Assembly (NCBI RefSeq): GCF_010747475.1
Contig: NZ_VSLZ01000006.1
Span: 1 to 64,000 of the forward strand
DNA: 64,000 nucleotides
Direction: 5' to 3'
DNA from: Halorussus sp. MSC15.2
Lineage (GTDB): Archaea; Halobacteriota; Halobacteria; Halobacteriales; Haladaptataceae
Positions 4,033-29,943 of the stretch are shown here, one piece after another (within the stretch, counting starts at the first letter, position 1; each line of letters begins with the position of its first letter). A program made the translations under genes and the position numbers. The notes beneath the pieces are model-generated. The model saw only the letters and a list, made by a program, of their open reading frames with translations, did no database searches and was not told the DNA's origin.

Positions 4033-4087
4033 CGGCACTGCCCGTCCGAAAACAAACATATATGGAATACAACCTTTGGTGAGTCAG

Positions 4088-5733: not shown

Positions 5734-5734
5734 C

Positions 5735-6351: not shown

Positions 6352-6920
6352 ATGAGCCAGCACGAACGACGCAACACAACAGCAGACGAACCGACCGAGG
6401 CGGCTACCGACGAATCCACCCCGGTAGCGGCCGACGAACCGACCACCGACGAACCGACGGCGGACGACGCCAAGTCGTTCGACCCCGACGCCGAAGGGAA
6501 AGCCGAGGCCAAGCGCCTGCTGAAGGCGGTCGAGGCCGACACCGAGCGCGCTCGCGCCGAGGCGGCGCTCGCCCGCAAGCGCGAGGGAGTCGAACGACTG
6601 AACCGACAGCTAGCCGACGCGAAACAGCGCCGCCAGCAGACGCGCGAACGCATCGAAGCGATGGAGTACACCGTCGAACGCCTCGAAGCCGCCGACGCCG
6701 ACCAGCTAGTCGTGCAGCGTCTCGAAGGCGGCGTCTCGCTGGGCGTTCCCGCCGACGAGCGCGAGGAGGTTCGTGAGGACCTCCGCGAGCGCACCCAGCA
6801 TCTCGAACAGCAACTCGAAACCGTCGACGCCGCATCGAGGCCCTCGAACGCGGCCTGCGGAAAGACCGCATCGCACTCGACTACCTGCAGAATCACACGG
6901 ACCTGGTGACTGACCAATGA
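6352..6920 (+). pseudogene. Acidic coiled-coil (prefoldin-like) tail protein with 3' frameshift
   Basis: As read, frame 1 ends at 6909 (185 residues) with a low-complexity tail unlike the rest. Residues about 55-160 are a long Glu/Arg/Ala coiled coil preceded by an acidic Thr/Asp-rich linker. At 6829-6831 the coding sense switches frame: from base 6831 the -1 frame reads RIEALERGLRKD and continues as good coiled coil to a TGA at 6918-6920. That TGA overlaps the ATG of the next gene (ATGA), as at most junctions upstream. A one-base deletion near 6830 (mutation or sequencing error) explains this best. Ribosomal slippage is possible but no classical slippery heptamer is seen. Without the frameshift the protein would have about 188 residues. 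Confidence 0.7.
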
Positions 6921-8362
6921 CTACTAACGCGATAAATCGAGAATCGTACGTCTGGCAGGACAAAGGAACGCCGCCGGCAAAGGGAGACGAGATATACGTC
7001 GCGGGCGACCAGCCCGTCGCCGCCTACGACAACTGGGCGATGTGGGCCGTCACGACCGACATCAAGCGCCTCGACGCTAGGCTCGCTGACCACGCGCACT
7101 TCCACGAGGCCGGAGCGGAGGACCCAATCGACCTCGACGGCCTCAGCATCGGGAAAAAATCCTCCGAGACCATCGCCGAGACGTCGTCGCCCGCGTCGTT
7201 CACGTTCTCGGGGTCCGAGAAACGCGACCTCCACGTGAAGACCGTCGTGACACTGTCGAACGCCAGCGGCTCGTCGACGACCGAGGACGTCACCGTCGCG
7301 CTGTACGACGGGACCGACGCTACCGGGTCGCTCATCGCCTCCCAGACCAAGAGCGTGACCATCGCCGACGGGTCGTCGAGTACGGTGACGTTCCTCCACC
7401 AGAACGAGAAACTCGACGACGGCGACCACTACGTCGAGATTACGACGTCGGGAACCGCACTCTCGGTCGACCAGACCGTCGAGCACGTGCTCAGTTGCCA
7501 GTACGTCTTTCAGAAGTCGGCGACCGGCGACCTCCAGTTCACGGACCATCACGGCACGGTCTACGCCGAGCGAGACGGTGCCAGCGGCTACTGGACGACG
7601 TTCACGGGGTTCGACACCAACGTCGACTTCCTGTTCAATTCGCTGGAGAAAGTGGGCGACGTCAACGCCGACAACGTTCGCGGCCGGAACGAGGAACTCG
7701 GAATCCGAACTAAAGGGAGTGGCACCGCGCAGGTCACGCTCTACGACGAGAACGGCGGACAGGATATCGCACGCGCTCGCGAGGGCGGCGAGTTCGAGGT
7801 CCCCAACGGCCCGCTCTCGGTCGGCGCCGACGTTCGGACAACCGGCGGTACCACGGTCTGGGACGCCGCGAACGGCTACGTCCCACAGGGGAGTCTCGAA
7901 AACGACGCCCTGAGCGTCAGCTACGGCAGTCACCTCTCGGGTGACGGGTCGGTCGCGCTCGGCGGCACGCTGAACCTGTCGGTGGACGACGACTTCGTCC
8001 AGAACTCCGGCGACACGATGGCTGGCACCCTCGACATGGGCGGCAACGACCTCGCCGACGGCGGAACGACCGTCTGGGACGCCGCGAACGGGTACGTCCC
8101 CGAATCGTCGCTCCAGACGCTGTCGAACGCGGCGCTCTCGAACAGCGCCATCTCAACGAGCTTCGGCAGGCACCTCTCTGGCGACGGGTCGGTCGCACTC
8201 GGCGGCACGCTGAACCTGTCGGTGGACGACGACTTCGTCCAGAACTCCGGCGATGCCATGACCGGCAACCTCGACATGGGAAGCAACGCAACGCAGTACG
8301 GCGACTTCGAGGTCCGCGAGAACAGCACTACCAACGCTCTGGAGTTCAACTACACCGCCTAG
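6917..8362 (+). CDS. Tail fibre protein with tandem fibre repeats
   Basis: 481 residues. An N-terminal attachment region (about 1-75) includes VWQDKGTPPAKGDEIYV and a short LxxHAHFHE stretch. A beta-sandwich (about 85-200) follows, then fibre repeats: GGTTVWDAANGYVP occurs twice and HLSGDGSVALGGTLNLSVDDDFVQNSGD occurs twice in the last 170 residues (too long to quote as one block elsewhere; bases about 7925-8040 and 8165-8280 are nearly identical). Each repeat ends in the SGDxMxGxLDMG motif common in phage tail fibres. The start ATG overlaps the frame-restored stop of the upstream coiled-coil gene. Confidence 0.75.
   Translation: MTTNAINRESYVWQDKGTPPAKGDEIYVAGDQPVAAYDNWAMWAVTTDIKRLDARLADHAHFHEAGAEDPIDLDGLSIGKKSSETIAETSSPASFTFSGSEKRDLHVKTVVTLSNASGSSTTEDVTVALYDGTDATGSLIASQTKSVTIADGSSSTVTFLHQNEKLDDGDHYVEITTSGTALSVDQTVEHVLSCQYVFQKSATGDLQFTDHHGTVYAERDGASGYWTTFTGFDTNVDFLFNSLEKVGDVNADNVRGRNEELGIRTKGSGTAQVTLYDENGGQDIARAREGGEFEVPNGPLSVGADVRTTGGTTVWDAANGYVPQGSLENDALSVSYGSHLSGDGSVALGGTLNLSVDDDFVQNSGDTMAGTLDMGGNDLADGGTTVWDAANGYVPESSLQTLSNAALSNSAISTSFGRHLSGDGSVALGGTLNLSVDDDFVQNSGDAMTGNLDMGSNATQYGDFEVRENSTTNALEFNYTA
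7850..8285 (+). repeat. Two imperfect direct repeats inside the tail fibre gene
   Basis: A unit of about 115 bases beginning near 7929 (cacctctcgggtgacgggtc) recurs near 8169 with only scattered third-position changes. A shorter unit encoding TTVWDAANGYVP recurs at about 7850 and 8066. The repeats encode the shaft motif SGDxMxGxLDMG. Such repeats allow unequal recombination that lengthens or shortens the fibre shaft. Confidence 0.8.
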
Positions 8363-8364
8363 CA

Positions 8365-10821
8365 ATGTCTCTCGCAGCAGTCTGGTCGTTCGACGGGACG
8401 CTGGCCGACGAGAGCGGCAACGGCAACGACGGCTCCGGGTCGGTCAGCTACACTGCTGGCAAGCGCGGACAGGCGCTCGTCGGCGACGGCTCCACGGTGA
8501 CCGTTCCGGTCTCGTCGTCCATCGAGAACGTCTTCACCGGCGACGAACTCACCGTCTCGGTCTGGTGGAAGCAGACTAGCCACACCGACAGCGACGACTG
8601 GGGGGACATCCTCGAATACACCGACGTCGACGGGGCTTCCCGCCGCCTCGAACGCGGCGACGCCAACGCTAGTAGTGAAGCGGACTTCTGGTGTAACTTC
8701 GGCGAGGCCTCCAACCGGATATCCGCGACCGGACTGGGCGTGGGGAGCGGCGAGTGGTTCCACCTCGTCGTCCGGCGCACCTCGTCCGAGCGGAGCGCGT
8801 GGGTGAACGGTTCGAAGGTCGTCTCTGAGTCCGTCTCGGGGTCGGTCGTCGGCATCGACGCGAGCAACGACCTCCGCATCAATTACCACGCGTCCGGGAG
8901 CGACGTCGGCGAGACTCGACTGTACGACCGCGCGCTCTCGGAGCAGGAGATACAACAGCTCAGTCGCGCACCCGTCGGCCAGTGGAAGCTCAACGGGACG
9001 GCGACCGACAACACTGTATACGGCAACGACGGCACGGTGTACAACGGTGCCGCCCCGACGGACGACACCGTCCTCAACCGCAAGTGCTACACCTTCGACG
9101 GGAGCGACGACCACGTCGAGGTACCATACGACGACGCGTTCGACGTGACCGAGGAGCTCACGATGAGCGCGTGGGTCCGCTCGGACGTAGACCCCGACCA
9201 GACCGCCGACAACGACTGGCGGGGCATCTGTAGTCGGGTGAGTTCGCCGTACCGCCTGCTGCTGGAGGAGGGTGGAAAGTTCTCCGGGAGCGTCTACGTC
9301 GGTGGTACCCGACTAAAAATCGACGCGCCGTCGAGTTACTTCAGCGTCGGGGCGTGGCACCACGTCGTCTACACTCACGTCGCAACGACCGGCGAAGCCG
9401 AAATCTACGTCGACGGCGAACTCGCCAACTCGAAGACGTTCACCACGACGGGGACCATCGACACGAACACCAGCCACTGGCAGATTTCCGAGGACGGGAC
9501 CCACTGGAACGGCGAAATCAGCGACGTTCGCCTGTACGCGACCGCGCTCTCGAGCGAAGCGGTCCGTCAACTCTACGAAAACCGCGCGACGCTCGACGAC
9601 CGCGGGAGCCTCTACGGACACGAACTGGTAGAACGCCCGGTTCGCCGGGGAGCAGACTGCGCGAGATACGTCTCGGTCGGCAGTACCGCCGAGGTGGCCG
9701 CTCTCCGCGACGGAACCGACGTGTACGTCAACAGCGCGAAACGGACGACCCTGAACGCACAGGGCACGGCCTCGCTGTCGGTGTCCGACGGAGACATCGT
9801 CTCGGCGGACGAACCGCTCTACTCCGGGAATCAGGTTCCGGGCGTCCCCGTCGGCTGGGAGGGAACTCGGTTCGCGTGGCGGAACAACCGGCACGGACCG
9901 ATAACTGCCCACGTCTACGCGACTCGCAACGATGCGACGGTCGAAGTCTACCAGACGTCGAACGACCCGGACAACCCTGCTACGACGACGACCGTCGCGG
10001 CCCACGCTCACGTCACCGTCTCGACCGGCGACGACGACGACCAGTGGATACTCGAAAGCGACGAACCCGTGGTCGTCTTCCTCGAACCGGGCGCCGACTA
10101 CCGGCCGCTCTATCCCGCGAACACCGAGATTACCGGCGTCCCCGGCGGTGGCATGCGCGTCGTCGCCGTCGAGGACTCCACGTCGGTCACTGCCTACGCG
10201 TCGGACGGGTCCTCCAGTTCGACCACGCTGAACCGCGGCGAGTACTGGAGGCCCTACAGCAACAGCCAGTACGACGGCGTCGCGGTGAATCTGGTCGCGG
10301 ACGGACCCGTCACCTGCGGGACGCAGGCCGACGGTGACGGCAGTGACATGACGACGTTCTTCGGTCGGCGCGGATTCGCCACCGAGTACGTCCTGCCGGT
10401 CGGCGCGGAGTTCGTCACGTTCGCGGGTCTCGAAGAGAACGCGACCGTGGACGTGTACGACCCGTCTGGGTCGAGTCTCGATAGCAAGACGGTCGGCGGC
10501 GGGTCGAGTTCGAACGACGACGTGCCGACCTACCTCCAGATAGACGAGGGCAACGTCTCGTACGCGCTGGACGCCGGGACGAAGTTCGTCTGTTCAGCCC
10601 CGCAATGGGCGATGTTCGAGAACCGCACGAGTAACGACGAGACGACGTTCTTCGGGTCGTCGCCCGGCGAGAATCACTACATCGCCCCTACGCGCCTGCC
10701 GACCGCCGAGGGCGTCGTCGAGGCCGAGGCGTTCGACGAGACCCAGTTCGGCCCTTCGACGGCACTGGCCCGCGACCGCCCCGACGGCCTCGAAATCGGT
10801 GGTGAGTTGCATGAACTGTAA
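8365..10821 (+). CDS. Giant tail-associated adhesin with two LamG/concanavalin-like domains
   Basis: 818 residues. Two LamG-like sandwiches are visible: residues about 3-200 (AVWSFDGTLADESGNGNDG, later ETRLYDRALSEQEIQQL) and about 208-410 (GQWKLNGTATDNTVYGNDG, CYTFDGSDDHVEV, WHHVVYTH, DVRLYATALSSEAVRQL). The sequence W-x-F/L-D/N-G...GNDG, FDGSDDxV and RxYxxALSxxEI are hallmarks of this glycan-binding fold. Residues about 430-790 are a beta-rich region without a recognised family. No signal peptide is present, which fits a virion or tail component rather than a secreted host protein. The likely role is receptor (glycan) binding. Confidence 0.7.
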   Translation: MSLAAVWSFDGTLADESGNGNDGSGSVSYTAGKRGQALVGDGSTVTVPVSSSIENVFTGDELTVSVWWKQTSHTDSDDWGDILEYTDVDGASRRLERGDANASSEADFWCNFGEASNRISATGLGVGSGEWFHLVVRRTSSERSAWVNGSKVVSESVSGSVVGIDASNDLRINYHASGSDVGETRLYDRALSEQEIQQLSRAPVGQWKLNGTATDNTVYGNDGTVYNGAAPTDDTVLNRKCYTFDGSDDHVEVPYDDAFDVTEELTMSAWVRSDVDPDQTADNDWRGICSRVSSPYRLLLEEGGKFSGSVYVGGTRLKIDAPSSYFSVGAWHHVVYTHVATTGEAEIYVDGELANSKTFTTTGTIDTNTSHWQISEDGTHWNGEISDVRLYATALSSEAVRQLYENRATLDDRGSLYGHELVERPVRRGADCARYVSVGSTAEVAALRDGTDVYVNSAKRTTLNAQGTASLSVSDGDIVSADEPLYSGNQVPGVPVGWEGTRFAWRNNRHGPITAHVYATRNDATVEVYQTSNDPDNPATTTTVAAHAHVTVSTGDDDDQWILESDEPVVVFLEPGADYRPLYPANTEITGVPGGGMRVVAVEDSTSVTAYASDGSSSSTTLNRGEYWRPYSNSQYDGVAVNLVADGPVTCGTQADGDGSDMTTFFGRRGFATEYVLPVGAEFVTFAGLEENATVDVYDPSGSSLDSKTVGGGSSSNDDVPTYLQIDEGNVSYALDAGTKFVCSAPQWAMFENRTSNDETTFFGSSPGENHYIAPTRLPTAEGVVEAEAFDETQFGPSTALARDRPDGLEIGGELHEL

Positions 10822-10833: not shown

Positions 10834-13215
10834 GTGACGCTCGTCACCCAGTGGACGTTCGACGGCGACCTGCGGGACCGCTCGGGGTACGACCACCACC
10901 TCTCCGGGTCGGTGACGTACGCCGAGGGCAAGACCGGGCGGGCGCTCGTCAGCGCGGGCAACGCGCTCGACGTACCCATGACGAGCGAGATAGAAGGCGT
11001 CTTCTCCGGCAACGAACTGACCGTTGCGGCCCGACTGCGCATCGACGAGTCGAGCAAGCAGTGGAACGACGTCCTCCGGTACGACGACGAGACGGGACAG
11101 GAGCGCCGACTGGAACGGGGCGACGCCGACGCGAACACCGGCCGCGCCGACTACTGTAACAACGTCGGCTTCGCGGACACTACCACGAAACTGTCCGACC
11201 ACAACGTCGGCCCGGCCGGCGAGTGGTACTCGCTCGTCGTCCGCCGCCTCCCGGACCGGGTCGAGGTCTGGATAGACGGGACGAAAGTGGACGCCGGGAG
11301 CGTTTCGGGTTCGATTCCGACGATTTCCGGCGGACTGCGGATTGACGAGGAGGACAACGACACCCGCATCGACGAGATTCGGCTGTACGACCACGCCGTC
11401 TCGACCGCCGAAATTCAGCGATTCGCCCGCGGCGCGGTGGGTCGCTGGAAGTGTTCGGACCTCGTGGAACCCATCGACAACATCTACGACTCCGAGAATC
11501 TCGGCTCGCAGTGGACCATCGTGACCCACGGAAACGGGACCGCGACGCTCTCGGCCACGGACGACGACACCGCACCTAGCGCGCCCGAGAGTACGACGAA
11601 ACTCGTCGCGGAGAAAGAGACTACGGGCGACGACCCCGACACCAGCGGCGGCGACAAGGTGTGGCACGGAGACTACAAGAAGGGCGCGGACAGCGTCACC
11701 GCTTCTGCGGGTGACACGTTCACCTTCTCGGGGTGGTACCGCTTAACCGACTCCACGGGAGACCCGCGAAACCTCAGATGTGACCTCTACGCGACCGACG
11801 AGTCGTGGAACAACTACTCGACCGATGGCACGGTTCGATTGGAAGCCGACAGCACGTGGCATCGCTTCGAGAACACGGTCGAACTCACCGAAGACAAGGA
11901 GGTCACGCCGTCGTGGCAGTGGAGCTACGACTACGGCTACCAGAAACTGGAACTGTGCGGACTACAGGTCCAGTACGCCACGGCACCGTCCGACGAGTTC
12001 GTGCAGGGAAAGGGGTCCCGTCCGGGAACCGCCCCCGACAGCACCGGTCACGGCCACGACGGCGACCCGACCGGAGTCGCGCAGGCCGAGGGGAGCGCCC
12101 TCGGGCGGACCTGCGCGTCGTTCGACGGCCATGACGACGAGATTGTCCTCCCCTCGCTCGGCGTGTCGGGCGACCGGTCGCTGACGCTGACGGCGTGGCT
12201 CCGCGTAGATGCGGACGCCGGGACGAACAACAACGTCTTCGGGTTCGGCGGCCGCAACGGAGGTGACACCTTCTCTCTGCGGACCGACGGTGACGGGGCG
12301 TTCAAATTCTACTTCTGGGACGACGACCTCGTCGCGACCACGTCGAACTACTACGGGTCGTGGGTCCACGTCGCCGCCCGGTACGACGCCGACGCCGGGG
12401 AACGCACGGTGTTCGTGGACGGCCAGCAGGTCGCCTCGGACGCGCCCGCGACGCCGAACTTCGTGGACGCCGACTACAGCATCGGCGGCTTCAACGGAGA
12501 GGCGTTCGATGGAATGCTCGCGGACGTGCGCCTGTACGCGACCGCGCTGTCGACCGACGAGATACGCCACGTCCACGAGAATCGCGCGCGCCTCGACCAC
12601 AACGGAACGCTCCACGCTCACGAGTTCGTGGAGTTCGACGAGCGACTGATGGTCGAGGACGAGACGTTCACGTGCGACCAGCACGACCGCAGCGCTCTCG
12701 GCACGGTCACGCCGAGAGACACTGACGCCAGCGACTGGGAAGAGGGAGACGACACGCTCGGCAATATTGCCATCGTCGGCGAAGCCGAGATAACCGACAC
12801 CACCTACGTTCCGGCGTCGTTCGAGTACACGAAGGTGAACGACGACGAGGGGTTCACCACCTCGTGGTCCGGCGGCGTCGTCTCGCCCGAGGGCTGGCAG
12901 ACCGGCTGGAACGAGTTCTACGTCCCGGTCAGCGACGCCGACTACCTGAGTCCGGCGAGCGCGCCGTGGGAGAACATGGACCGGCTACAGCTCTACCGAA
13001 CGGGACCGAACGCGGGCGACTCGAACCAGACCATCCGGTTACGCGACCTTCGGCTGGTGAAGACCCCCGACGCCGCGGACTCGGGCGCGCTCGCAGTCGA
13101 CGCTGACGGTGTGGTGACCGCCGTCGAGTTCGACGAGACGACGGCGCTGAGTGGCTCGACGGTCGCCGAAGACGCTCCGACGCGACTCTCCGTCGGCCGA
13201 CTGGACGAGTGCTGA
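10834..13215 (+). CDS. Second giant adhesin with LamG domains
   Basis: 793 residues, GTG start at 10834 supported by a ggagg ribosome binding site about eight bases upstream. It is paralogous to the preceding gene: the first LamG domain at about 1-200 (TQWTFDGDLRDRSGYDHHLSG, IDEIRLYDHAVSTAEIQRFARG) and another at about 385-590 (SFDGHDDEIVLP, WVHVAARYDADAG, DVRLYATALSTDEIRHV). Between them (about 210-370) lies a carbohydrate-binding-module-like sandwich (DTFTFSGWYRLTD). The C-terminal 190 residues form another beta-rich region ending in a short conserved tail (FDETTALSGSTVAEDAP) that matches the end of the upstream paralogue (FDETQFGPSTALARDRP). That shared tail may be a trimerisation or attachment point. 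Confidence 0.7.
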   Translation: MTLVTQWTFDGDLRDRSGYDHHLSGSVTYAEGKTGRALVSAGNALDVPMTSEIEGVFSGNELTVAARLRIDESSKQWNDVLRYDDETGQERRLERGDADANTGRADYCNNVGFADTTTKLSDHNVGPAGEWYSLVVRRLPDRVEVWIDGTKVDAGSVSGSIPTISGGLRIDEEDNDTRIDEIRLYDHAVSTAEIQRFARGAVGRWKCSDLVEPIDNIYDSENLGSQWTIVTHGNGTATLSATDDDTAPSAPESTTKLVAEKETTGDDPDTSGGDKVWHGDYKKGADSVTASAGDTFTFSGWYRLTDSTGDPRNLRCDLYATDESWNNYSTDGTVRLEADSTWHRFENTVELTEDKEVTPSWQWSYDYGYQKLELCGLQVQYATAPSDEFVQGKGSRPGTAPDSTGHGHDGDPTGVAQAEGSALGRTCASFDGHDDEIVLPSLGVSGDRSLTLTAWLRVDADAGTNNNVFGFGGRNGGDTFSLRTDGDGAFKFYFWDDDLVATTSNYYGSWVHVAARYDADAGERTVFVDGQQVASDAPATPNFVDADYSIGGFNGEAFDGMLADVRLYATALSTDEIRHVHENRARLDHNGTLHAHEFVEFDERLMVEDETFTCDQHDRSALGTVTPRDTDASDWEEGDDTLGNIAIVGEAEITDTTYVPASFEYTKVNDDEGFTTSWSGGVVSPEGWQTGWNEFYVPVSDADYLSPASAPWENMDRLQLYRTGPNAGDSNQTIRLRDLRLVKTPDAADSGALAVDADGVVTAVEFDETTALSGSTVAEDAPTRLSVGRLDEC

Positions 13216-13246: not shown

Positions 13247-14557
13247 ATGACACGCAAACGACGACACGAACGCGAGGACGCCGAGCGCCGCGGGGCCCAG
13301 TCACGGCTTCGCTCCGTCGCAGACCACTTCCACGGACGAACCGGGACACTGTTCGACCGGGCAACCGCCGTGGCGGACGTGGCGGCGGCTATCGGCGTCG
13401 AGGAGGCACAGGCCAGCGAATACGTCGGCCGCGTCGCCGGCGACCGGGTAGACCCCGTGGTCGCCGTTCCGACCGAGACCGGTACCTTCGTCGGCGTCCT
13501 CGACTATCACGAGGGCGACGGCTGGTACGGCTACACCGACTATCACGACCTGCGAGGCCCGCACCGTCGCGGGGTTTGCGCCCGGTGCGTCCGCGAGGCG
13601 GTCGGTGACGCCGAACCATACGCCGTGACCATCGACGTGGACCGGCCGTGGGAGGACCTCGGACGTGACCTCGAAACCCACTTCAGGACCGCTCATCCGA
13701 GCGTCGAGACGGGGTCGGTGCCCGTCGAGACTGGTGCGGTTCTGCGCTCGCGCACGACGGTCGGCGGGAATCGGGTGTGGCACACCGGCAACGACGGTAC
13801 TGGCTCCGGCTTCGAAGCCGTGGCGGTCGATGGCCTCGACGGAGCGACGCTGAACCGTCGGCACACGAGCGACGTCGGTCGGCACCTCGACCGGAACCGT
13901 CTCGGCCTGAAGCTGTGGTACCGCTTCGACCTCGGGACGGGCGGTAGCGTCTCGGACTTCTCCCAGCACGGCGCGACTGGAAACAGGAAGGGAACGACGT
14001 GGACGTCCGGTCGCACCGGGAGCGCGCTGTCGTTCGACGGGAGCGACGACCGGGTCGCGGTCAACGACAACCTCGTGTACAATCAGTCCGGCGAACTCGA
14101 CAACTTCACCGTGATGTGCTGGATGAAGACGACCAGTAGTGCCGAGATGTCTCTCGTCGCGTGGGACCGCAGCGAGTACTACCGGTTCGGTATGGATAGC
14201 GGCGGCCCGGCACTGAAGTTGACCAACGAGGGGGACTGGACGTACGACCACACGCCCGGCGGGTCGATAAACGACGGAAGTTGGCACCACGTCGCCGCAA
14301 GGTACGACCACGAGACGGGGGACTCGACGCTGTACGTGGACGGGTCACAGTTCGCTCAGACCTCGGCGTTCGGCGACGGCACGTCTATCGGGACAGGGGC
14401 GACGCGGTACGGCATGGTCGGCGTCGGGTCGGAGGCGTCGTCGCCTGACTCCGACCGGAACAGCAACTACTTCTCCGGAACGATAGACGAGGTACGTGTC
14501 TACCATCGCGCACTCTCGGGGAACGAGATTCAGGACATCTATCGGGGGGTCGCGTGA
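13247..14557 (+). CDS. Modular fibre A: HTH-like + zinc-finger anchor fused to LamG tip
   Basis: 436 residues from ATG at 13247. Residues 1-70 look like a winged-helix-like region (VAAAIGVEEAQASEYVGRV). Residues 83-150 hold a GWYGYTDYHDLRGPHRRGV segment followed by C111-x2-C114 and H145-x4-H150, a possible zinc site. Residues 160-215 carry fibre-like motifs (ETGAVLRSRTTVGGNRVW, VDGLDGATLNRR). The C-terminus (about 223-436) is one LamG domain (FDGSDDRVAV, WHHVAARYDHETG, IDEVRVYHRALSGNEIQDI). The same anchor occurs in the next two full genes with other tips. The last A of its TGA is the first base of the next ATG. Confidence 0.7.
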   Translation: MTRKRRHEREDAERRGAQSRLRSVADHFHGRTGTLFDRATAVADVAAAIGVEEAQASEYVGRVAGDRVDPVVAVPTETGTFVGVLDYHEGDGWYGYTDYHDLRGPHRRGVCARCVREAVGDAEPYAVTIDVDRPWEDLGRDLETHFRTAHPSVETGSVPVETGAVLRSRTTVGGNRVWHTGNDGTGSGFEAVAVDGLDGATLNRRHTSDVGRHLDRNRLGLKLWYRFDLGTGGSVSDFSQHGATGNRKGTTWTSGRTGSALSFDGSDDRVAVNDNLVYNQSGELDNFTVMCWMKTTSSAEMSLVAWDRSEYYRFGMDSGGPALKLTNEGDWTYDHTPGGSINDGSWHHVAARYDHETGDSTLYVDGSQFAQTSAFGDGTSIGTGATRYGMVGVGSEASSPDSDRNSNYFSGTIDEVRVYHRALSGNEIQDIYRGVA

Positions 14558-15831
14558 TGGACGCCGACGCGCTTCGACGGGTCGCTGACTGGTTTCACGA
14601 CCGGGAAGGCACCTTTCGTCCGCGAACCGGGGCGGTGTCCGCCATCGCGCGTAAACTCGACGTGGACGCGACGAGGGCGAGCAAACTGGTCGCCGGCCTG
14701 ACTGGCGACGACGTGGACCCCGTAATAGCGGTCCGCACGCACGAAGAGACGTTCGTCGGAATCCTCGACTACCGTGAAGGCGATGGCTGGTACGGTTACA
14801 CCGACTACCACGACCTGCGAGGCCCGCACCGCCGCGGCGTCTGCGCTCAGTGCGTCCACGAGGCGACGACCGACGAGGATGTTCGCACCGTCACCACCAC
14901 GAATGAGGACTGGGACGCTCTCGAAGCGGAACTCGGCGACCACTACGAGCGGGCACATCCGGACGTCGCGCCCGAAACTGTCAACGTCGAGACGGGCGCA
15001 ATTCTGCGCTCGCGCACGACCGTCGGTGGGAACCGGGTGTGGCACACCGGAAACGACGGTGCCGGGTCGGGATTCGGCGCGGCCAGCGTCGATGGCCTCG
15101 ACGGGGCGACGCTGAACCGCCGCCACTCCAGCGACGTGGACCGCCACCTCGACCTGAACCGACTCGGACTCCGGGCGTGGTATCGATTCGACCGCGGTTC
15201 GGGCGGGACGCTGTACGACTACGTGAACGTCGGTAGCAACCGAAACGGCGAACTCCGCGGTCCTACGTGGGTCTCGGGGCGAAACGGCGGGTCAGCGCTC
15301 TCGTTCGACGGGAGCGATGATTACGTGGCTCTCCGGGACTCTTACGCGACGAGCGGCGCACTCGACGAGTTCACCGTCTGTGTGTGGTATCGGTCCAGCG
15401 CGTCGAGTCCGACCTGGTCGTTCTACGACTTCGACCGCTCGGAGTACTTCCAGTTCGGCTTCGACAGCGGGGGCGGTGGCGACATCCAATTCGCCACGAC
15501 GGACCCGGGTAACTCGCAGGACGACATGTACACGTCCGGAACCTCGTGGAACGACGGAAGCTGGCACCTCGCCTGCGCAGTGTACGACGGGACGGACAAG
15601 TACATCTACGTGGACGGGTCCGTGGAAGGGGGCAAGTCCGGCCCGCACAACGGAGCGGCTATCGGCACGGGGGTGACTCGGTACGGCTACGTCGGTGCCG
15701 GCTCCGAGTCGAACTCGTTCGACGGTAACCGGAACAACAACAACTTCGAGGGCGACATCGACGAGGTTCGGTTCTACACGCGAGCGCTCTCGGGTAGCGA
15801 AATACGGGCCATCTACGACGGCGTCGCGTGA
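14557..15831 (+). CDS. Modular fibre B: same zinc-finger anchor, LamG tip
   Basis: 424 residues from ATG 14557 (TGATG coupling with fibre A). The first ~200 residues are closely related to fibre A over the anchor (GDGWYGYTDYHDLRGPHRRGV identical; C96-x2-C99 and H129-x4-H134). At DNA level the segment 14785-14840 is nearly identical to 13520-13575. The LamG tip (about 205-424) has diverged more: FDGSDDYVAL, SWHLACAVYDGTD, IDEVRFYTRALSGSEIRAI. This pattern of a conserved root and faster-evolving tip fits receptor-binding proteins. No signal peptide or membrane segment is present. Confidence 0.7.
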   Translation: MDADALRRVADWFHDREGTFRPRTGAVSAIARKLDVDATRASKLVAGLTGDDVDPVIAVRTHEETFVGILDYREGDGWYGYTDYHDLRGPHRRGVCAQCVHEATTDEDVRTVTTTNEDWDALEAELGDHYERAHPDVAPETVNVETGAILRSRTTVGGNRVWHTGNDGAGSGFGAASVDGLDGATLNRRHSSDVDRHLDLNRLGLRAWYRFDRGSGGTLYDYVNVGSNRNGELRGPTWVSGRNGGSALSFDGSDDYVALRDSYATSGALDEFTVCVWYRSSASSPTWSFYDFDRSEYFQFGFDSGGGGDIQFATTDPGNSQDDMYTSGTSWNDGSWHLACAVYDGTDKYIYVDGSVEGGKSGPHNGAAIGTGVTRYGYVGAGSESNSFDGNRNNNNFEGDIDEVRFYTRALSGSEIRAIYDGVA

Positions 15832-15958
15832 CCCCCGACGAAAACTGGTATTATATCGACACCTCCTACGAGTGTAATGCAGGTGATACGTAAGCTCCGC
15901 CTGCGGACGGTCCTCGGCGAGTCTGCGACACCACGTTACTCACGACAGGAGCGATAGT

Positions 15959-16228
15959 ATGGACCAAACTCGACTCCGAAACGCCACCGACGCGGCCAGC
16001 GTCACTATCGACAGGTTGGTCGTCACGTCGTGGTACGACGGTCACGGCGTCGCCGGAGATTACAGTCACAACGTAACTGTCACTCTCACGAACGGGTGGC
16101 ACTCGTTCCGCGTTCGATACGAGGAAGGCAGTCGTGGCGACGGTGTTTCGGTCGCGTGGCAGACGCCGAGTGACTCCTCCTACTCGGTCATACATCACTC
16201 AGTTCAGAATCGGTCAGACGTAACATGA
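15959..16228 (+). pseudogene. PA14-like fibre tip fragment without its anchor
   Basis: 89 residues, beginning abruptly. The segment VTLTNGWHSFRVRYEEGSRGDGVSVAWQTP (only LTxGWHxFRVxYEE and VAWxxP are diagnostic) resembles the end of a PA14 glycan-binding domain. There is no anchor module like that of the flanking genes, and bases 15832-15958 contain no good coding frame. This looks like the leftover tip of a fibre gene whose 5' part was lost. Its stop still overlaps the ATG of fibre C (ATGA). It could alternatively be expressed as a free small tip protein. Confidence 0.5.
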
Positions 16229-17262
16229 CGCAACTCGACGCATCAAAAGTACTCGAACGAGCTGAATCGGAGCGCAAACACGTCCGGTCGTTGCTGCGAG
16301 ACGCGGCGACCGTATTCCACGAGCGGGAAGGCGAGCTGTTCCCCCGGTCGGACGCCGTCTCGCTACTGGCGGAGGAACTCGACGTGACCCGCGACACCGC
16401 CGACAGAGCGGTGAGCGGTCTCGTCGGCGACACCGTCGACCCGGTCGTACAGCTGTCGGCTGACGGCGAACACACCGTCGGCGTCATCGACTACCACGAA
16501 CACGAGTTCTGGTACGGCTACACCGACTATCACGACGTGTTCGGACGGCGTAAGAAGGGCGTTTGCGGCCAGTGCGTTCGGGAGGCCGCCACCGACAACG
16601 AGGTGACGTACGTCGCCGAGGGCGAAGGCCGGCTCACCGACGGCGCGAGTTGGGACGACATCGAAGCACAACTCACGACGCACTTCGAGCGCGCCCATCC
16701 CGGAGTCGAGGCCGTCGACGTCCAGACGGGCGCGACCCTCGCCTCCGGTTCGACCATCGCTGGCAACGCCATCATCCACGCTGGCAACGCCTCTTCGAAG
16801 GCGAACGCCGACATGGTGGACGGGATGCACGCCAGCGACCTCGCACCGACCCACGACGACGGCTCTACGAAGTGCCACATCGTCGCTACCGAGCGGTTCG
16901 GTGCCGAAGGGTCCTCGACCACGAACACCAGTTACGCGACCATCGCAGGCTCGGACCTGACGTTCAACCCCGACGACTACAGGGACGCCGACGGGAACCT
17001 CTACTGTCGTTTCTACGCCCACCTCAAACACGGCAACAACTCCGGGACGACGTACGCTCGAATGTACCGCCAGAACGCCGCAAGCGCGGTTTCGGGCACG
17101 CAGGTGTCCGTGAGCGCGAGCGACGGCTGGGGAAAAGGTGACTCCGGCTGGGTCAACTTCGGTGACTCTGGCTACGAGTCGTACCACGTTCAGCTCAAAT
17201 CGAGCGACGGCGAGCCCGTCTCGTACAACTCCATCATCCTCCAACTGGGGGTGCCAGCCTAA
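16225..17262 (+). CDS. Modular fibre C: zinc-finger anchor with a different beta-sandwich tip
   Basis: 345 residues. The anchor module is again present: HTH-like region about 20-70, FWYGYTDYHDVFGRRKKGV, C114-x2-C117 and H153-x4-H158, then the fibre motif QTGATLASGSTIAGN and MVDGMHASDLAPTHDDGST. The tip (about 205-345) is not LamG but an unrelated beta-rich domain ending in SYNSIILQLGVPA. The TAA stop shares a base with the next ATG (17262). This gene shows that one anchor can be fitted with unrelated binding domains. Confidence 0.7.
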   Translation: MTQLDASKVLERAESERKHVRSLLRDAATVFHEREGELFPRSDAVSLLAEELDVTRDTADRAVSGLVGDTVDPVVQLSADGEHTVGVIDYHEHEFWYGYTDYHDVFGRRKKGVCGQCVREAATDNEVTYVAEGEGRLTDGASWDDIEAQLTTHFERAHPGVEAVDVQTGATLASGSTIAGNAIIHAGNASSKANADMVDGMHASDLAPTHDDGSTKCHIVATERFGAEGSSTTNTSYATIAGSDLTFNPDDYRDADGNLYCRFYAHLKHGNNSGTTYARMYRQNAASAVSGTQVSVSASDGWGKGDSGWVNFGDSGYESYHVQLKSSDGEPVSYNSIILQLGVPA

Positions 17263-17810
17263 TGACCACAGACGTAATCATAGAAGACGCGACGCCAGAA
17301 GAAGTCGACGAACTCGCTGACGACGGCGAGTGGTACCTCTCGCCCGCGATGCCCCGAGAGGTCCAACGAGTCGCGCAGGCGATGTCCGACGCCGGCGAAG
17401 ACGACGAAAGCATCGGGCAACTGGTCCGCCACCACTTCAAGGACTACGGCGAGGACCGGGGGCTCGGCCTGTTGCTAATCCGCCACTCCGAGGAGCCCGG
17501 CATCTATGGTGCGATCGCGCTCGTTCCCAACACGGAGTACTTCACCGACCTCAACGACCACGACTTCCTCGTCGTGGACGACTACCAGTGTCACGTCCGG
17601 TCCTACGAAGTCCCCGATGCCCCAGAGTTCCTCGACGTGCTAGACGAGGAGCTCCTCAAACGCGGCTGGATGGAAATCGTCGTAAGTGAGAAGCTCACGT
17701 CGTTCGAGGATGCTATCTCCGAGCACGACCAATTCCATTCCAACGGCGTTTCCGTAGAGTGGGAGCTGGCCGAATCCAACCGTTCGACCCTGTACTACTG
17801 GAGCCAATAA
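17262..17810 (+). CDS. Unknown acidic protein in the fibre-glycan operon
   Basis: 182 residues, TAATG-coupled to fibre C. No recognised family. The N-terminus has DEWYLSPAMPREVQRV-like sequence (actual GEWYLSPAMP), then a globular middle with GLGLLLIRHSEEPGIYG and a conserved-looking LVPNTEYFTDL, and a WELAESNRSTLYYWSQ end. It contains one Cys and no membrane segment. Its position between fibres and glycosyltransferases makes a role in fibre assembly or modification plausible, but this is inference. Confidence 0.6.
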   Translation: MTTDVIIEDATPEEVDELADDGEWYLSPAMPREVQRVAQAMSDAGEDDESIGQLVRHHFKDYGEDRGLGLLLIRHSEEPGIYGAIALVPNTEYFTDLNDHDFLVVDDYQCHVRSYEVPDAPEFLDVLDEELLKRGWMEIVVSEKLTSFEDAISEHDQFHSNGVSVEWELAESNRSTLYYWSQ

Positions 17811-17811
17811 C

Positions 17812-18294
17812 ATGGAATTTTACGAAGTCATGTTCCTCGCAGACGGCTGTACCGACGCGAAAGAAATCGAAGTCCGCGCGACCGGCGCAGCCGAACGGTG
17901 CGACGACCACTTCGCCGTGGTTTCGGCCACGATTCACGCCCGACCCAACCAGTTCGACGTGGAACTGAGCCGTCACACCGCAGTCGTGATGGTCATGGTC
18001 CCCAACACGTGGGACGATCCCCGCTTCGACGAATTCGCCGGGAAGATGGCTCGCCTCTACGGCGTTCCGATGATCGGCGCAACCCACCTGCAGGACGAGA
18101 CGCTCAACTTCAAGAGCGACGAGCAGGCCATCGAGAACTTCAAGGCCGACGCGCTTGGCCGCGACGCCTCCGACGAGTTCGAAGCTCAGCCCGGCGAGAC
18201 GCGCGCCGATAGAGCTGACGAGACTAGTCTAACCGAGGAGACCTTCACTGTCGAAGTAACCCCTGATTCCGATACTGATTATGACGAAGAGTAA
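17812..18294 (+). CDS. Unknown small protein in the fibre-glycan operon
   Basis: 160 residues. The start lies one base after the upstream stop. An N-terminal EFYEVMFLADGC stretch and a hydrophobic strand AVVMVMVPNTW (about 55-68) suggest a small alpha/beta fold. The last 45 residues are acidic and disordered. The gene overlaps the start of the GT4 gene by 14 bases (18281-18294), so the fibre genes and the glycosyltransferase are in one transcript. No family is recognised. Confidence 0.6.
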   Translation: MEFYEVMFLADGCTDAKEIEVRATGAAERCDDHFAVVSATIHARPNQFDVELSRHTAVVMVMVPNTWDDPRFDEFAGKMARLYGVPMIGATHLQDETLNFKSDEQAIENFKADALGRDASDEFEAQPGETRADRADETSLTEETFTVEVTPDSDTDYDEE

Positions 18295-19504
18295 GTACTC
18301 CGACCCGTTCAGCGACACTCGCCTCGGCCTAATCTACAGCGACCTCCGAACGCAGGGCGGTCAGGAGGAGGTCATCAGAATCCTGGCCGAAGCGCTCAAC
18401 GCGCCAATCTACACCCTCGACTACGAGCCCGAGAAGTTCGACAAGAGAGCCCAAGAGGTCTTCCGCCACCGGGTTCGAAAGATTCCGCCCGAGGAAGGTG
18501 TCGGCGACAGTCCAACCGACTTCTTCGAGCCGCAGGGTGCAGAGTACAAACAGATTGCTAGCCTCTCGAATCTCCGGGAAGCAGATACCGACCGCATCGT
18601 CTGCGACGGACTAATCGCTATCTCGGTCAAGGGAGCTGTGATGGCCGAACACGCAGGCATTCCATACATCACGTTCCTCGACCACCCCGGGAAGGTCATC
18701 ACGGACTACTTCTGGGAGACGCTCGACAACAAGGACCGCTGGCGCGACAAGCTCAAGTTCCTCAAGCGGCGCTGGGTCCACTCGCGCGCTTACAAACAGG
18801 CATGTCTCGATGGTGAGGGGATGATGGCCAACAGCGAGCGCACCAAGCAACTGGTCGTCGACGACTGGGGTTTCGACCCCGACGACATCGACGTGGTGTA
18901 CCCACCTATCGACACCGAGAAGTTCACGCCGGGCGAACCCGAGCGCGACGTTCTCGACCTGAACCGGTACTTCCTCGCCCCGCAGCGAGTCGAGGCGTAC
19001 AAGAACATCCACACGCTGGTCGAAGCCGCGAAACTCGCACAGGAACACCTCGTCATAGTCGGTACCGGAACGCTCGAATCCTACGTCCGGAAGGAAGCAC
19101 AGTACTCGAAGTACGTCCACTATCTCGGGTACGTGGACGACGACGTTCTTCGGGACCTCTACCGGGATGCAACCGCGACCATGCAGGGCGTCCTTCGGGA
19201 GGACTTCGGGATGGTCCCCGTCGAGAGCATGGCTTGCGGCACGCCGTGCCTCCTCCCGGGGTCAGGCGGGTTCAACGAGACGGTGGGGCCGGGCTACGAC
19301 GGCGACGTGGCCCCGACCCAGACCACGCCTCGCGGCCGACTTGTCGATCCCGAAGAGTTCGATCATTACGAGCTCGCCGGCGAGATGCAAGCATTCGATC
19401 CCGAAGAGTTCGACGCCGAGCATCTGGTCGAGACGGCCCAGCAGTACGACGTGGACAACTTCGTCTCGGGCATCGAGCGGAACCTCGACGCGCTCGACCT
19501 CTAA
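18281..19504 (+). CDS. Glycosyltransferase, GT4-like (GT-B fold)
   Basis: 407 residues, no signal peptide, so cytoplasmic. The C-terminal donor-binding half is clear: VDVVYPPIDTEKFTPG-like linker (about 205-220), a YKNIHTLVEAAKL region, LVIVGTGTLESYV, and REDFGMVPVESMACGTPCL (about 305-324), the E-x7-E nucleotide-sugar motif of GT4 enzymes. The N-terminus begins LGLIYSDLRTQGGQEEVIRIL, as in the GT4 acceptor domain. It most likely transfers a sugar from a nucleotide donor to a glycan or protein acceptor. The overlapping upstream gene and tail-fibre operon suggest fibre glycosylation or remodelling of host surface glycans. Confidence 0.85.
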   Translation: MTKSKYSDPFSDTRLGLIYSDLRTQGGQEEVIRILAEALNAPIYTLDYEPEKFDKRAQEVFRHRVRKIPPEEGVGDSPTDFFEPQGAEYKQIASLSNLREADTDRIVCDGLIAISVKGAVMAEHAGIPYITFLDHPGKVITDYFWETLDNKDRWRDKLKFLKRRWVHSRAYKQACLDGEGMMANSERTKQLVVDDWGFDPDDIDVVYPPIDTEKFTPGEPERDVLDLNRYFLAPQRVEAYKNIHTLVEAAKLAQEHLVIVGTGTLESYVRKEAQYSKYVHYLGYVDDDVLRDLYRDATATMQGVLREDFGMVPVESMACGTPCLLPGSGGFNETVGPGYDGDVAPTQTTPRGRLVDPEEFDHYELAGEMQAFDPEEFDAEHLVETAQQYDVDNFVSGIERNLDALDL

Positions 19505-19509
19505 TCGTC

Positions 19510-20646
19510 ATGGCCATCAACGTTCCCCGCTCGGCGAACATCGACCGCGTGGTGCTGGTCTCCATCGATACGTTTCGGTGGTACTACCACCAGCCGTACC
19601 GCGAGCTGTACCCTCCGGGCGTCTGGTATCGAGGAGTTGCACAGGCGACGTTCACGCCGACGTCGCATGCCTCGATGTTCACTGGACAGAACCCACCACG
19701 TCACGGCGTACTGAACTTCGGTGATACGTATCGGGGCGACCACCTCCTGAAGGCTACCGATAGCGTCTCGTACTCGAACGCTGTGCATCCCGCAGGCCCG
19801 TTCACGCGGGGGTTCGAGCAGGGGACGGACGCGTACAAGCAGGTGGCGTTCTCGGCGTGGCATCCCGACCACGAACGGGTCCCCCACTTCCGGTACGAGC
19901 ATCACGAGGACCATCGGGCGATTCTGGACGGTATCGCCAACCGGGACCTGACGTTCATCCACGACTGGCTCCTCCATGGGATTCTCGACCACACCGGAGA
20001 CTGGTATCCCGTTCCCGAGGAGGACGACCCTGCCGATTTCCACCGCTGTTACCAGCAGCAGGTCCGAGAGAGCGTCCGCACTCACGAAGCGATTTTGGAC
20101 GCGCTCAAGGAACATGGCCTCTACGAGAACACCCTGTTCGTCGTCTGGGGCGACCACGGTTGTGGGTTCCACGAACCGCCGGACGAAACCTACGGCAACG
20201 GAATCACGGTCAGTGAACCACACGCTCGCATCCCCATCGCGTTCTGTTCGCCCCAGTTCGACGAGACCACGGTGGACACCGAAACCAACGCCCGAAGCGT
20301 GGATATCGTTCCGACGCTCCAGACGCTCATGCACGACGCTGGACTTCGATTCGGTTCCCTCGAACATCCGATAGAAGGCGTTGACCTCACCGGGTTCGAC
20401 GGCGAACTAGCGGGCTACACGACCTCCTACAAGACGCCGCTGACGGGCGAAAACGACGGCGTCCGCACGCGGGAGTTCGCGCTGATCAACGACGAGGTGA
20501 AGGAGGTTCGACAGGTCCACGGAGGACTACACGCCGACTACAGTCTCGAGCGCGCCGTAAGTGCGCCCGAAACGGAATCGTGGCTGGAAGACCTCTACCA
20601 CGAGGTTCGCCAGCAACCGAGTAAGCTCATCATTAATGGAAAATGA
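19510..20646 (+). CDS. Sulfatase-like / phosphodiesterase (alkaline phosphatase superfamily), copy 1
   Basis: 378 residues. Metal-site motifs of the superfamily are visible: VVLVSIDTFRW (Asp at 20), a TPTSHASMFTGQNPPRHGV block (about 48-66) in which a Thr/Ser replaces the Cys of formylglycine sulfatases, and VVWGDHGCGF (about 209-218). A later VDIVPTLQTLM helix is also typical. The missing CxPxR motif argues against a sulfatase and for a phosphodiesterase, phosphotransferase or other hydrolase. There is no signal peptide. It is paralogous to the next gene and overlaps it by four bases (ATGA). Confidence 0.75.
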   Translation: MAINVPRSANIDRVVLVSIDTFRWYYHQPYRELYPPGVWYRGVAQATFTPTSHASMFTGQNPPRHGVLNFGDTYRGDHLLKATDSVSYSNAVHPAGPFTRGFEQGTDAYKQVAFSAWHPDHERVPHFRYEHHEDHRAILDGIANRDLTFIHDWLLHGILDHTGDWYPVPEEDDPADFHRCYQQQVRESVRTHEAILDALKEHGLYENTLFVVWGDHGCGFHEPPDETYGNGITVSEPHARIPIAFCSPQFDETTVDTETNARSVDIVPTLQTLMHDAGLRFGSLEHPIEGVDLTGFDGELAGYTTSYKTPLTGENDGVRTREFALINDEVKEVRQVHGGLHADYSLERAVSAPETESWLEDLYHEVRQQPSKLIINGK

Positions 20647-21830
20647 CATATAATGTTCCACTCACGAAAGATATCGAGCGCGTGGTTCTCATCACCGTGG
20701 ACTGTCTGCGGTGGGACTACCACGACGCGTACCGCGAGCTGTACCCCGATGGCGTCTGGTATCGAGGGACGCCGCAAGCGACGTACACGCCGACCAGCCA
20801 TACCTCGATGTTCACCGGACTTAACCCGCCCCGTCACGGGGTGTACGAGTTCGGTGACAGGTACAGTGGTCAAGATACGATATTTACTGCTACAGATAGT
20901 CTCAGCACGTCGGGACTTACCAACGAAGAAAATAATCTTTTGTTCGGGTTCGACGTCGACCAAGACCACGTTCCGTTCTCTGATTGGTTCCCCGAGGCAC
21001 TTGCCAATACGGATGCAACGGCTCGAACTCCCGAAGGTCTCGAAGAGTCGCCAGAGCAGATCGACCAACTGGAGGACTACGAACTGGCGTTCCTCCACGA
21101 TTGGATACTGCACGGTGTCGGAGTCGACGACGAGGACCCGTGGCACTACACTGCGGACCATGACGACCCGGCAAAGAACCACGAAAAGTATCAGAGCCAA
21201 CTTCAGATGAGCATCGCCGCACACGAGACTATTCTCGAGGAACTCAAAGCAAGAGACCTCTACGAGGATACGCTATTCGTGGTGTGGGGCGATCACGGAG
21301 AAGCTCTCCACGAAGCACCGCATCACATGTATACCCACGGTCACTTTCCTGAAGAAGCGATTGCGCGCGTCCCCATCGCGTTCTGTTCACCGCAGTTCGA
21401 CGAGACCACGGTGGACGCCGAAACCAACGCCAGAGGCATCGACATCGCTCCGACGCTCCAGACGCTCATGCGCGAAGCGGGGCTCCGATTCGACTCGATA
21501 AGCCACGACTTCGAAGGAGTCGACCTGACGACGTTCCGGGGAAAGCTGGCAGGCTACACCATGTCGATGCAAACCGCGAAAAACGGTCGCGAGGACTGTA
21601 TTCGAGATTCGACTCACTGTTTGTTGCAGAAAGATGATGGGAAGTTTACGCGGACGTTCACCGAACCGGACCCAGAAGACGGACATCGACTCGAAGAGCC
21701 GTGTGAAAATCCACTCGTCGAACAACGATTCGAGTCGTTATACGAATCGGTCCGGAACGGTCCGGAGAAGCTGATACTCAACCACGAACCAGATAGAGAA
21801 CAGCTACGAAATCTCGGTTATATAGACTAA
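20643..21830 (+). CDS. Sulfatase-like / phosphodiesterase (alkaline phosphatase superfamily), copy 2
   Basis: 395 residues, ATGA-coupled to copy 1 and sharing its motifs: VVLITVDCLRWDYHDAYRELYP, TPTSHTSMFTGLNPPRHGV, VVWGDHGEALHEAP and IDIAPTLQTLM. Runs of 15-20 identical bases remain (for example around 20229 and 21373), so it arose by tandem duplication. The middle (20870-21060) is AT-richer and diverges, and probably forms the substrate-specific insert. It ends in LRNLGYID, a common end of archaeal sulfatase-like proteins. The substrate is unknown. Confidence 0.75.
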   Translation: MTYNVPLTKDIERVVLITVDCLRWDYHDAYRELYPDGVWYRGTPQATYTPTSHTSMFTGLNPPRHGVYEFGDRYSGQDTIFTATDSLSTSGLTNEENNLLFGFDVDQDHVPFSDWFPEALANTDATARTPEGLEESPEQIDQLEDYELAFLHDWILHGVGVDDEDPWHYTADHDDPAKNHEKYQSQLQMSIAAHETILEELKARDLYEDTLFVVWGDHGEALHEAPHHMYTHGHFPEEAIARVPIAFCSPQFDETTVDAETNARGIDIAPTLQTLMREAGLRFDSISHDFEGVDLTTFRGKLAGYTMSMQTAKNGREDCIRDSTHCLLQKDDGKFTRTFTEPDPEDGHRLEEPCENPLVEQRFESLYESVRNGPEKLILNHEPDREQLRNLGYID

Positions 21831-21864
21831 TTCAGAAGTCAAACCATAAACAGCGAATTCACCC

Positions 21865-22812
21865 ATGACACCACTCGACACCAACATCACGCTCTGCATG
21901 CTGACCAAAGACGAAGAAGACAACATCGTCTCGACGCTGGAATCGGCGTCACCCATCTTCGAGGAACTCGTCCTCGTAGATGCCTCGGAGGACGATACCG
22001 TGGCAGTCGCCGAGGAGTGGTGCGAAGAACACGCCGTGGACTTCGACGTGATCGAGTCCAGCGAGCGCGAATACCTCCTCGAAGGACCGGGCACGCAACG
22101 ACGTCGTGCCGAAGACCTCGCTACCCGCGAGTACACCATGCAGGTCGGCGCAGACGTGGAGGTCGAAATCCACGACGAACAGTGGTTCACTCGTGAGTTC
22201 GACCACTACGGCTACGTCCACACTCGCGTCAAGCCCTCGGGCCGAGTAGACCGCGACTATCGGCTCTACTGTCCGGACCCCGACATCGACTTCGACCACC
22301 GAAAGCCGGGGATGATTCCGCAATGGCGCGGGTTGGTCCACGAAGAGATTCGAACCGAGTACGGCCACCACATGCAGGAGGTCTACCGCGTGGCAGAAGC
22401 ACCGATGACTCATCACCAGACGCGGCACGGTGCGATGGACGTTTCGAACGTCGAGGAAGGACACCAGCGGATTCACGACGAGCGATTCGGCGGAAACACT
22501 GGTCGCGCGCTCAAGAAACAGCACTACCTGATGCATCGCCAGCTCGCGTCCGACCGCCAGCCCGCGTATCTCTCCGAGCCGTACCACGAGTACTACCGCG
22601 AGAACCGCGAACTCGTCATCCAGCACTGGGAAGAGATCCGCGAGGAGTACACACTCCCGCAGTTCGCTACTCGTGAATGGGACGTTCGGGACTTCGGACA
22701 GGGTGAGAAACGCTACGGGCCGTGGCGGCTCGACGAGGGAGAGCCGCTGTACAAGCCCCGGCGACTCTCTGCCGGAGAGTACGTCGTGCAGAAGCTTACT
22801 GGTGAGTTCTGA
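21865..22812 (+). CDS. Glycosyltransferase family 2-like protein A
   Basis: 315 residues. The N-terminus ITLCMLTKDEEDNIVSTLES, then EELVLVDASEDDTVAVAEEW and MQVGADVEVEI, match the GT-A Rossmann start, the nucleotide-binding Asp and a DxD-like acidic pair of GT2 enzymes. The C-terminal half is charged, with many His and Tyr residues (AEAPMTHHQTRHG). No membrane segment is present. It follows the two hydrolase genes after 34 bases and precedes another GT2-like gene by three bases. Confidence 0.75.
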   Translation: MTPLDTNITLCMLTKDEEDNIVSTLESASPIFEELVLVDASEDDTVAVAEEWCEEHAVDFDVIESSEREYLLEGPGTQRRRAEDLATREYTMQVGADVEVEIHDEQWFTREFDHYGYVHTRVKPSGRVDRDYRLYCPDPDIDFDHRKPGMIPQWRGLVHEEIRTEYGHHMQEVYRVAEAPMTHHQTRHGAMDVSNVEEGHQRIHDERFGGNTGRALKKQHYLMHRQLASDRQPAYLSEPYHEYYRENRELVIQHWEEIREEYTLPQFATREWDVRDFGQGEKRYGPWRLDEGEPLYKPRRLSAGEYVVQKLTGEF

Positions 22813-25905: not shown

Positions 25906-25988
25906 TGATTCCCGTTTCGGAGAATGGCTCTATAAATCTTGTGAGGGGATAAGTTATAAACAAATGAGTTGCAACTGCATACGTACTG
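25905..25988. promoter_or_regulatory. Divergent TATA-box pair for two surface enzymes
   Basis: A tataaa at 25931-25936, read as TTTATA on the minus strand, lies about 26-31 bases upstream of the ATG at 25905. A ttataaa at 25954-25960 lies about 29-35 bases upstream of the + strand ATG at 25989. These distances fit leaderless transcripts, which are common in haloarchaea, and no ribosome binding site precedes either start. Confidence 0.55.
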
Positions 25989-27713: not shown

Positions 27714-27957
27714 CACTTCGCCGCCGCATTACCGGAAAGTCGTGAAAGATAATGGTAGTACTATCTTAGTATTATTCTCGCCAGGCCTTCGCCACCAACG
27801 TCGCTAACCCAACTTCGCTCACCTCCAATTCCAACGTGGAGTTCTTACGGCGCTTCATAATTCACAGAAAATTGTTTGAAGTCTGGTTGTTCGGCGTTTT
27901 CACCGAGAGGTTCCAAATCCCCACTATTCAAAAAATACATATATTGAAGGAATAATT

Positions 27958-27962
27958 GGAGG
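27958..27962 (+). promoter_or_regulatory. Strong Shine-Dalgarno of the 27971 lipoprotein gene
   Basis: ggagg eight bases before ATG 27971. It supports this start and contrasts with the leaderless-looking neighbours. An AT-rich tract with tacatatatt lies just upstream (27936-27945). Confidence 0.6.
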
Positions 27963-27970
27963 ATTAGCCG

Positions 27971-29899: not shown

Positions 29900-29943
29900 T
29901 TGCCATCGCCCCTGTCTCCCGAGTCGGAGCTAGGCAGGTTCGA

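Follow-up and report, generated by a model that had tools for sequence, protein, structure and literature searches.

Of the protein weapons that bacteria make, tailocins belong to the best known. The R-type representatives, such as R-pyocin and carotovoricin, are encoded by genes for a contractile tail without a head; their fibre loci vary and are exchanged or replaced between relatives, in Pectobacterium by recombination (PMC13195805). A haloarchaeal type VI secretion system (T6SS) is known, with a reported affinity to Bacillota and a gene set that differs from that of the locus analysed here (PMC11566945), and phiCh1-type viruses switch tail fibres by inversion (PMC6471424). In the open-access literature that we searched (preprints and subscription journals lay outside its scope), no archaeal tailocin was found, and the haloarchaeal T6SS was the only archaeal contractile weapon with a demonstrated function. 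Here, we analyse a stretch of 64,000 nucleotides from Halorussus sp. MSC15.2 (contig NZ_VSLZ01000006.1, positions 1 to 64,000; referred to as the window), which at positions 13247 to 17262 carries three fibre genes, A, B and C, and the remnant of a fourth. We think it likely that these encode the fibres with which a contractile tail without a head, a candidate R-type tailocin of archaea, binds its receptors; the lack of head genes seen alongside a positive control, an intact tail block, its substitution rates, the context of related viral proteins, conserved Cys/His ligands, a fold model and lectin-like tips all support this assignment. A more specific proposal, for and against which we would argue about equally, is that of a new archaeal R-type tailocin lineage derived from a myohalovirus tail, with paralogous fibres that combine a winged-helix/zinc base with different lectin tips, and with one particle type recognising several target haloarchaea.

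The locus shares with the bacterial R-type tailocins the headless contractile tail genes and the variable fibres, and differs from them in its archaeal host, its phiCh1/ChaoS9-type tail, its set of three or four adjacent paralogous fibres and the lack of any inversion system in our searches. Sheath, tube, tape measure and baseplate genes lie in one locus, with the genes for the receptor-binding fibres behind those for the baseplate. From tail completion to baseplate, the block is collinear with that of the Vertoviridae myohaloviruses ChaoS9, phiH1 and phiCh1 (about 27–55% identity), in ChaoS9 as far as protein 145. The window opens with the 3′ part of the tape-measure gene (1 to 1293, plus strand), followed by the baseplate block (1295 to 6349, plus strand; ChaoS9 105, 110, 115 (hub), 125, 135 (W-like), bpj and 145), including the baseplate J protein (4447 to 5733, plus strand; PF04865, E 7e-13; 48% identical to ChaoS9 Bpj). 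By an inferred join, the 5′ part of the tape-measure gene and the sheath gene (C11:1918-3279) are placed near the end of another contig, C11; the assembly break between the end of C11 and the start of C6 falls within the tape-measure gene, and near-identical repeats of more than 50 bp lie at the C11 end. Intact tail blocks with different flanks are present in three genomes of two genera: the genome studied (G000), a congener (G016) and a member of another genus of the same family (G010). The operon of the congener starts at about C1:3.060 Mb, downstream of ordinary chromosomal genes that include a leucyl-tRNA synthetase-like gene, and comprises tail completion, sheath, tube, tape measure and baseplate genes, while the matching block of G010 extends from tail completion to a 204-amino-acid baseplate protein and is mostly 60–91% identical, the tape measure being lower. 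The flanking gene of the congener, sought in G000 as a test for an empty site, was not found there.

No capsid, portal, terminase or neck genes were recognised in the three loci, with the provirus-like G332 as positive control, and ChaoS9 TerL, portal, protease, capsid, head closure, neck and Int1 proteins had no match in them. The head and packaging genes of a Vertoviridae virus are not seen here: in contrast to ChaoS9, phiH1 and phiCh1, the locus lacks the whole head, packaging and neck block and the int1 invertase, and its fibres are unrelated to theirs. The closest virus-like contig, L047 (sheath 59% identical), and G332 (sheath 62%) carry head or connector genes upstream of the tail, as do the other sheath carriers that were examined. 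The head and connector proteins of L047 match G332 at 56–86% but, apart from the tail-completion protein, have no match in any of the three loci, and its putative major capsid protein was detected in G332 and is absent genome-wide from G000, G016 and G010. Because the tail is found without head genes in three genomes, which the original prediction missed as the tail lies partly on another contig, the element probably does not represent a virus; ‘host range’ would here mean target range.

A decaying provirus, that is, a phiCh1/ChaoS9-like virus without head genes whose tail genes simply have not yet eroded, would be in keeping with the remnant of the fourth fibre gene and with the 7-kb stretch of other genes (24037 to 31155) that interrupts the tail locus. 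We consider it unlikely, as three genomes from two genera retain the same boundary, with the block beginning at the tail-completion gene, and all core tail genes are open. The tail proteins of G000 and G016 differ by 10–36% yet remain intact, and the ratio of nonsynonymous to synonymous substitution rates (dN/dS) of the core tail genes is 0.09–0.46 between the two, highest in the fibre gene at 6917; the tail genes thus appear to be under purifying selection. Because the block is headless by comparison with a positive control, conserved in three genomes and marked by these dN/dS values, we regard it as a candidate tailocin. Several points weigh against that assignment. The contig break in the tape-measure gene splits the locus of G000 over C11 and C6. 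The TerL searches were weak and had no informative control, and the 315-amino-acid L047 protein was called a major capsid protein from its position and conservation, not from a family match. No holin or endolysin was clearly recognised, and only a protease and a membrane/coiled-coil protein were seen. The tail occurs in only three of 28 genomes of the family, with differing flanks, and so, unlike in Pectobacterium, does not occupy one fixed site. In contrast to the bacterial tailocins, finally, particles and killing are here predicted from the genes.

The fibre proteins A (436 amino acids; 13247 to 14557), B (424 amino acids; 14557 to 15831, with an alternative GTG start at 14554) and C (345 amino acids; 16225 to 17262) are encoded on the plus strand in one operon-like run. 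As originally predicted, these three full genes share a homologous N-terminus of about 200 residues, here termed the anchor (identity A/B 61%, A/C 44%), with an HTH-like part, modelled as a winged helix, and near-invariant C-x2-C and H-x4-H ligands. In A, the anchor (about 13247 to 13860) comprises the winged helix, the Cys/His set (C111/C114 at about 13577 to 13588 and H145/H150 at about 13679 to 13696, plus strand; predicted from sequence) and a tail-fibre-type linker, VETGAxLRSRTTVGGNRVWHTGNDG, and a LamG tip follows at about 14036 to 14533. The motif GWYGYTDYHD, initially ascribed to all three, is present in A and B, whereas C reads FWYGYTDYHD. Of the C-terminal ends described, those of A and B are LamG domains (Pfam Laminin_G_3, PF13385; E 7e-23 and 6e-23); the tip of C is a domain without a Pfam match, for which the structure model, with a predicted local distance difference test (pLDDT) score below 40, was not interpretable.

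The Cys/His ligands of the anchor conform to a C2H2-type zinc site (C-x2-C and H-x3-5-H): both Cys residues and the first His are invariant in 11 aligned homologues and the second His is kept in 10 of them, with H-x3-H spacing in the viral contig L043. Zinc binding is predicted from these conserved residues alone. Residues ~18–89 are modelled as a winged helix, and AlphaFold models for C, in which the anchor taken by itself reaches a mean pLDDT of 78.5, contain in the anchor a long N-terminal helix, the winged helix and a hairpin-helix unit that bears the Cys/His set. Structure prediction thus bore out the winged helix, the only part that comparison of the model with PDB structures supported (Z 5–7). 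The anchor matched no Pfam family with a credible score and no PDB sequence, and Foldseek returned no viral structure at E <0.001. Homologues were sought first with three-sequence patterns, which returned none in genome contigs and viral contigs, and then with profiles built from seven and eleven anchors, which detected the anchor in five IMG/VR contigs (L043–L046 and L064). A second scan of genome contigs gave matches to the fibre linker only, in bacteria, and phage and plasmid records gave nothing except one linker-only match. Two further hits, in L004 (E 7e-4) and L015 (E 5e-4), are not credible relatives, the latter being a sugar nucleotidyltransferase-like open reading frame by its sequence.

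In all five independent viral contigs the anchor gene is preceded by baseplate and/or fibre genes, that is, in a tail context and not in the non-tail contexts that would speak against a fibre. What follows the anchor differs, as far as folds can be read from sequence: a short beta-type domain in L043, fibre repeats in L044 and L064, almost nothing in L045 and a repeat-rich domain of ~300 residues in L046. Since the viral homologues occupy tail-fibre positions and continue differently, the anchor is, to judge from its relatives, a tail-fibre base with tips that are interchangeable over a long time scale, in agreement with the claim that these are tail-fibre proteins in which a conserved base carries different tips. 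It would represent an unrecognised attachment module that is also present in free viruses. We give very little credence to the idea that the anchor is a regulator, with the winged helix and zinc finger binding DNA and the surface domains incidental: the structural matches of the winged helix are mostly DNA-binding proteins, but many winged helices bind proteins, and in the window as in the viruses the same polypeptide runs into fibre-type repeats and lectin domains, always within a tail block. In L045 (7986 to 9482), the anchor protein of 226 amino acids ends behind the linker and a separate gene of 271 codons comes next, as if base and tip had been split; this gene may encode the binding domain.

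Anchors were found in two of the 28 genomes of the family, G000 and G016, and 391 genomes sampled evenly from the class yielded no further anchor of substance, the single extra match, in G059, being a different protein. The dynamics of the array are thus read from one species pair. The order in G000 is A, B, remnant, C, and in G016 four anchor genes follow one another: R13 (LamG), R14 (another LamG), R15 (PA14) and R16 (C type). The orthologue of A is R13 (tip 80%, anchor 57% identical), and C is collinear over its full length with R16 (anchor 83%, tip 76%). The anchor tree joins A to R13 (support 86/85), with B as their nearest neighbour, and also joins R14 to R15 and C to R16 (100/100). The LamG tree again joins A to R13 (83/91), with B nearest to them and R14 outside. 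B and R14 occupy the same slot and are not sisters (approximately unbiased (AU) test, p 0.052). Because the anchor and LamG tip trees agree, with moderate support, no recent tip swapping at the anchor–tip boundary is visible between the two species. The gap between anchor and tip identity in A and R13 was considered as a sign of such a swap and rejected, as the two remain grouped in both trees and have similar synonymous divergence in both parts; it is explained by a fast-evolving A anchor. Slot 2 changed by whole-gene turnover and slot 3 decayed. In the simplest history, whole fibre genes were duplicated and lost, and domains were replaced at a greater time depth; the array as a whole varies by whole-gene duplication, loss and replacement.

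The orphaned PA14-like tip that had been noticed between the genes belongs to the decayed slot 3. The piece at 15959 to 16225, between B and C, is open over 89 codons, lacks an anchor and is closed upstream by stops; it corresponds to the end of a PA14 domain and is 64% identical to the intact homologue R15 (L012:17563-18642), which scores above the cut-off for PF07691 (E 2e-6). DNA at 15802 to 15891 matches that upstream of R15 (79%), and DNA at 15988 to 16240 matches the 3′ end of R15 together with the beginning of the gene behind it (75%). The orphan tip is, on these alignments, the 3′ remnant of a decayed fourth anchor gene that is intact in the congener (15828 to 16228, plus strand), with upstream DNA kept to ~15891 and a large internal deletion that removed the anchor and half of the tip. 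The PA14 end is therefore present as described, but the matches to the R15 region on both sides of the deletion leave no room for a stored spare tip.

These results also bear on the proposal that near-identical anchors recombine and swap tips in a viral host-range cassette. The same base does carry different tips, both within the array and across viruses, and slot 2 holds different genes in the two species, as noted above for B and R14. The anchor DNA, by contrast, is not near-identical: aligned identity is 69% for A/B, 58% for A/C and 56% for B/C, with longest exact runs of 23, 28 and 11 bp, respectively, of which only the 28-bp A/C run, over WYGYTDYHD, exceeded every shuffle. With concordant trees, a collinear C/R16 pair, a ‘stored’ tip that has decayed, no recombinase and no head genes, we regard a recombining cassette as highly improbable. 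The absence of a visible invertase, as first reported, was upheld, no convincing match to ChaoS9 int1 or int2 being found in the window or the loci searched (best E 0.22). The invertible tail-fibre module of phiCh1 and phiH1 (PMC6471424) is variable at the same map position, but here all fibre genes lie on the same strand, no tyrosine recombinase sits between inverted fibre genes and no inverted gene pair is present; variation would arise through gene duplication and loss.

For the candidate tailocin, we propose that the N-terminus docks each fibre onto the baseplate or a neighbouring fibre and that tips of the LamG, PA14-like and other types recognise different glycans or proteins on the surface of rival haloarchaea. 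Lysis would release the particles, and upon binding the sheath would contract and puncture the target, which the tail would thereby kill; several anchors with different tips would widen the target range. If true, this would amount to an independent domestication of virus tails by archaea and would offer a concrete, testable system for haloarchaeal warfare. The Halogeometricum borinquense T6SS/contractile injection system (CIS) is likewise a contractile sheath system of haloarchaea with a candidate role in antagonism, but it is encoded by a cis1–16 cluster reported to be nearest to Bacillota, in contrast to the halovirus-derived tail with lectin-tipped fibres described here (PMC11566945). It serves as a precedent for a cell-attached, T6SS-like injection system, since a T6SS mode and a putative membrane anchor have been described for haloarchaeal CISs (PMC11566945). 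In our locus the tether would be the conserved membrane protein encoded by the last gene (35974 to 36372, plus strand), which has a membrane-like segment and is kept in all three genomes. We find this improbable: lectin-tipped fibres fit a diffusible particle better, and the tail is of the Vertoviridae type with a tape measure, whereas the known haloarchaeal clusters reportedly lie closest to Bacillota. Among the genes scanned no AAA domain was found, which bears only indirectly on the ATPase of the full cis1–16 set.

Ahead of the array lie genes for a fibre/baseplate-associated protein (6917 to 8362, plus strand), a homologue of the gene before the anchor gene in L043, and for two proteins with two LamG stretches each, of 818 amino acids (8365 to 10821, plus strand; 73% identical in G016, dN/dS 0.27) and 793 amino acids (10834 to 13215, plus strand; 75%, dN/dS 0.26). 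Directly behind C follow two acidic proteins of 182 amino acids (17262 to 17810, plus strand; syntenic G016 gene 35% identical, no family match) and 160 amino acids (17812 to 18294, plus strand; 41%), the position of which suggests fibre-assembly chaperones. Next, two glycosyltransferases flank two phosphodiesterase/sulfatase-superfamily genes (18281 to 22812, plus strand); G016 has conserved counterparts of the first glycosyltransferase and of the sulfatase-like genes behind its own fibres. These genes could modify the surface glycans of the producer or the fibres; by altering the producer’s own surface glycans, they may contribute to self-protection. Behind the baseplate, G000 and G016 thus have in common the pair of LamG proteins, the array of anchor genes, both small acidic proteins, one glycosyltransferase and the sulfatase-superfamily genes. 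G010 instead has a D/H-rich protein of 206 amino acids, a radical-SAM protein and others, followed by the same terminal membrane-protein gene; from one tail to another, the predicted targeting end therefore differs as an entire block.

Between the glycosyltransferase genes and the protease of G000, the stretch at 24037 to 31155 has a lower GC content, encodes several proteins with twin-arginine-like signals and is not there in G016. The halovirus-type protease (phrog_20754; 34659 to 35900, plus strand) is syntenic in G016, which has one copy; a second copy is present in the window at 32034 to 32939. At the fibre position of G010 (L023:10765-13922; C3, ~40.8–43.9 kb), the 206-amino-acid protein is rich in D, H and Y and contains SIWVEGSDLHFVDGSG-type repeats, and the radical-SAM protein after it (PF04055) has a Cys/Gly-rich C-terminus; the pair is possibly a modified-peptide or fibre-modification cassette.

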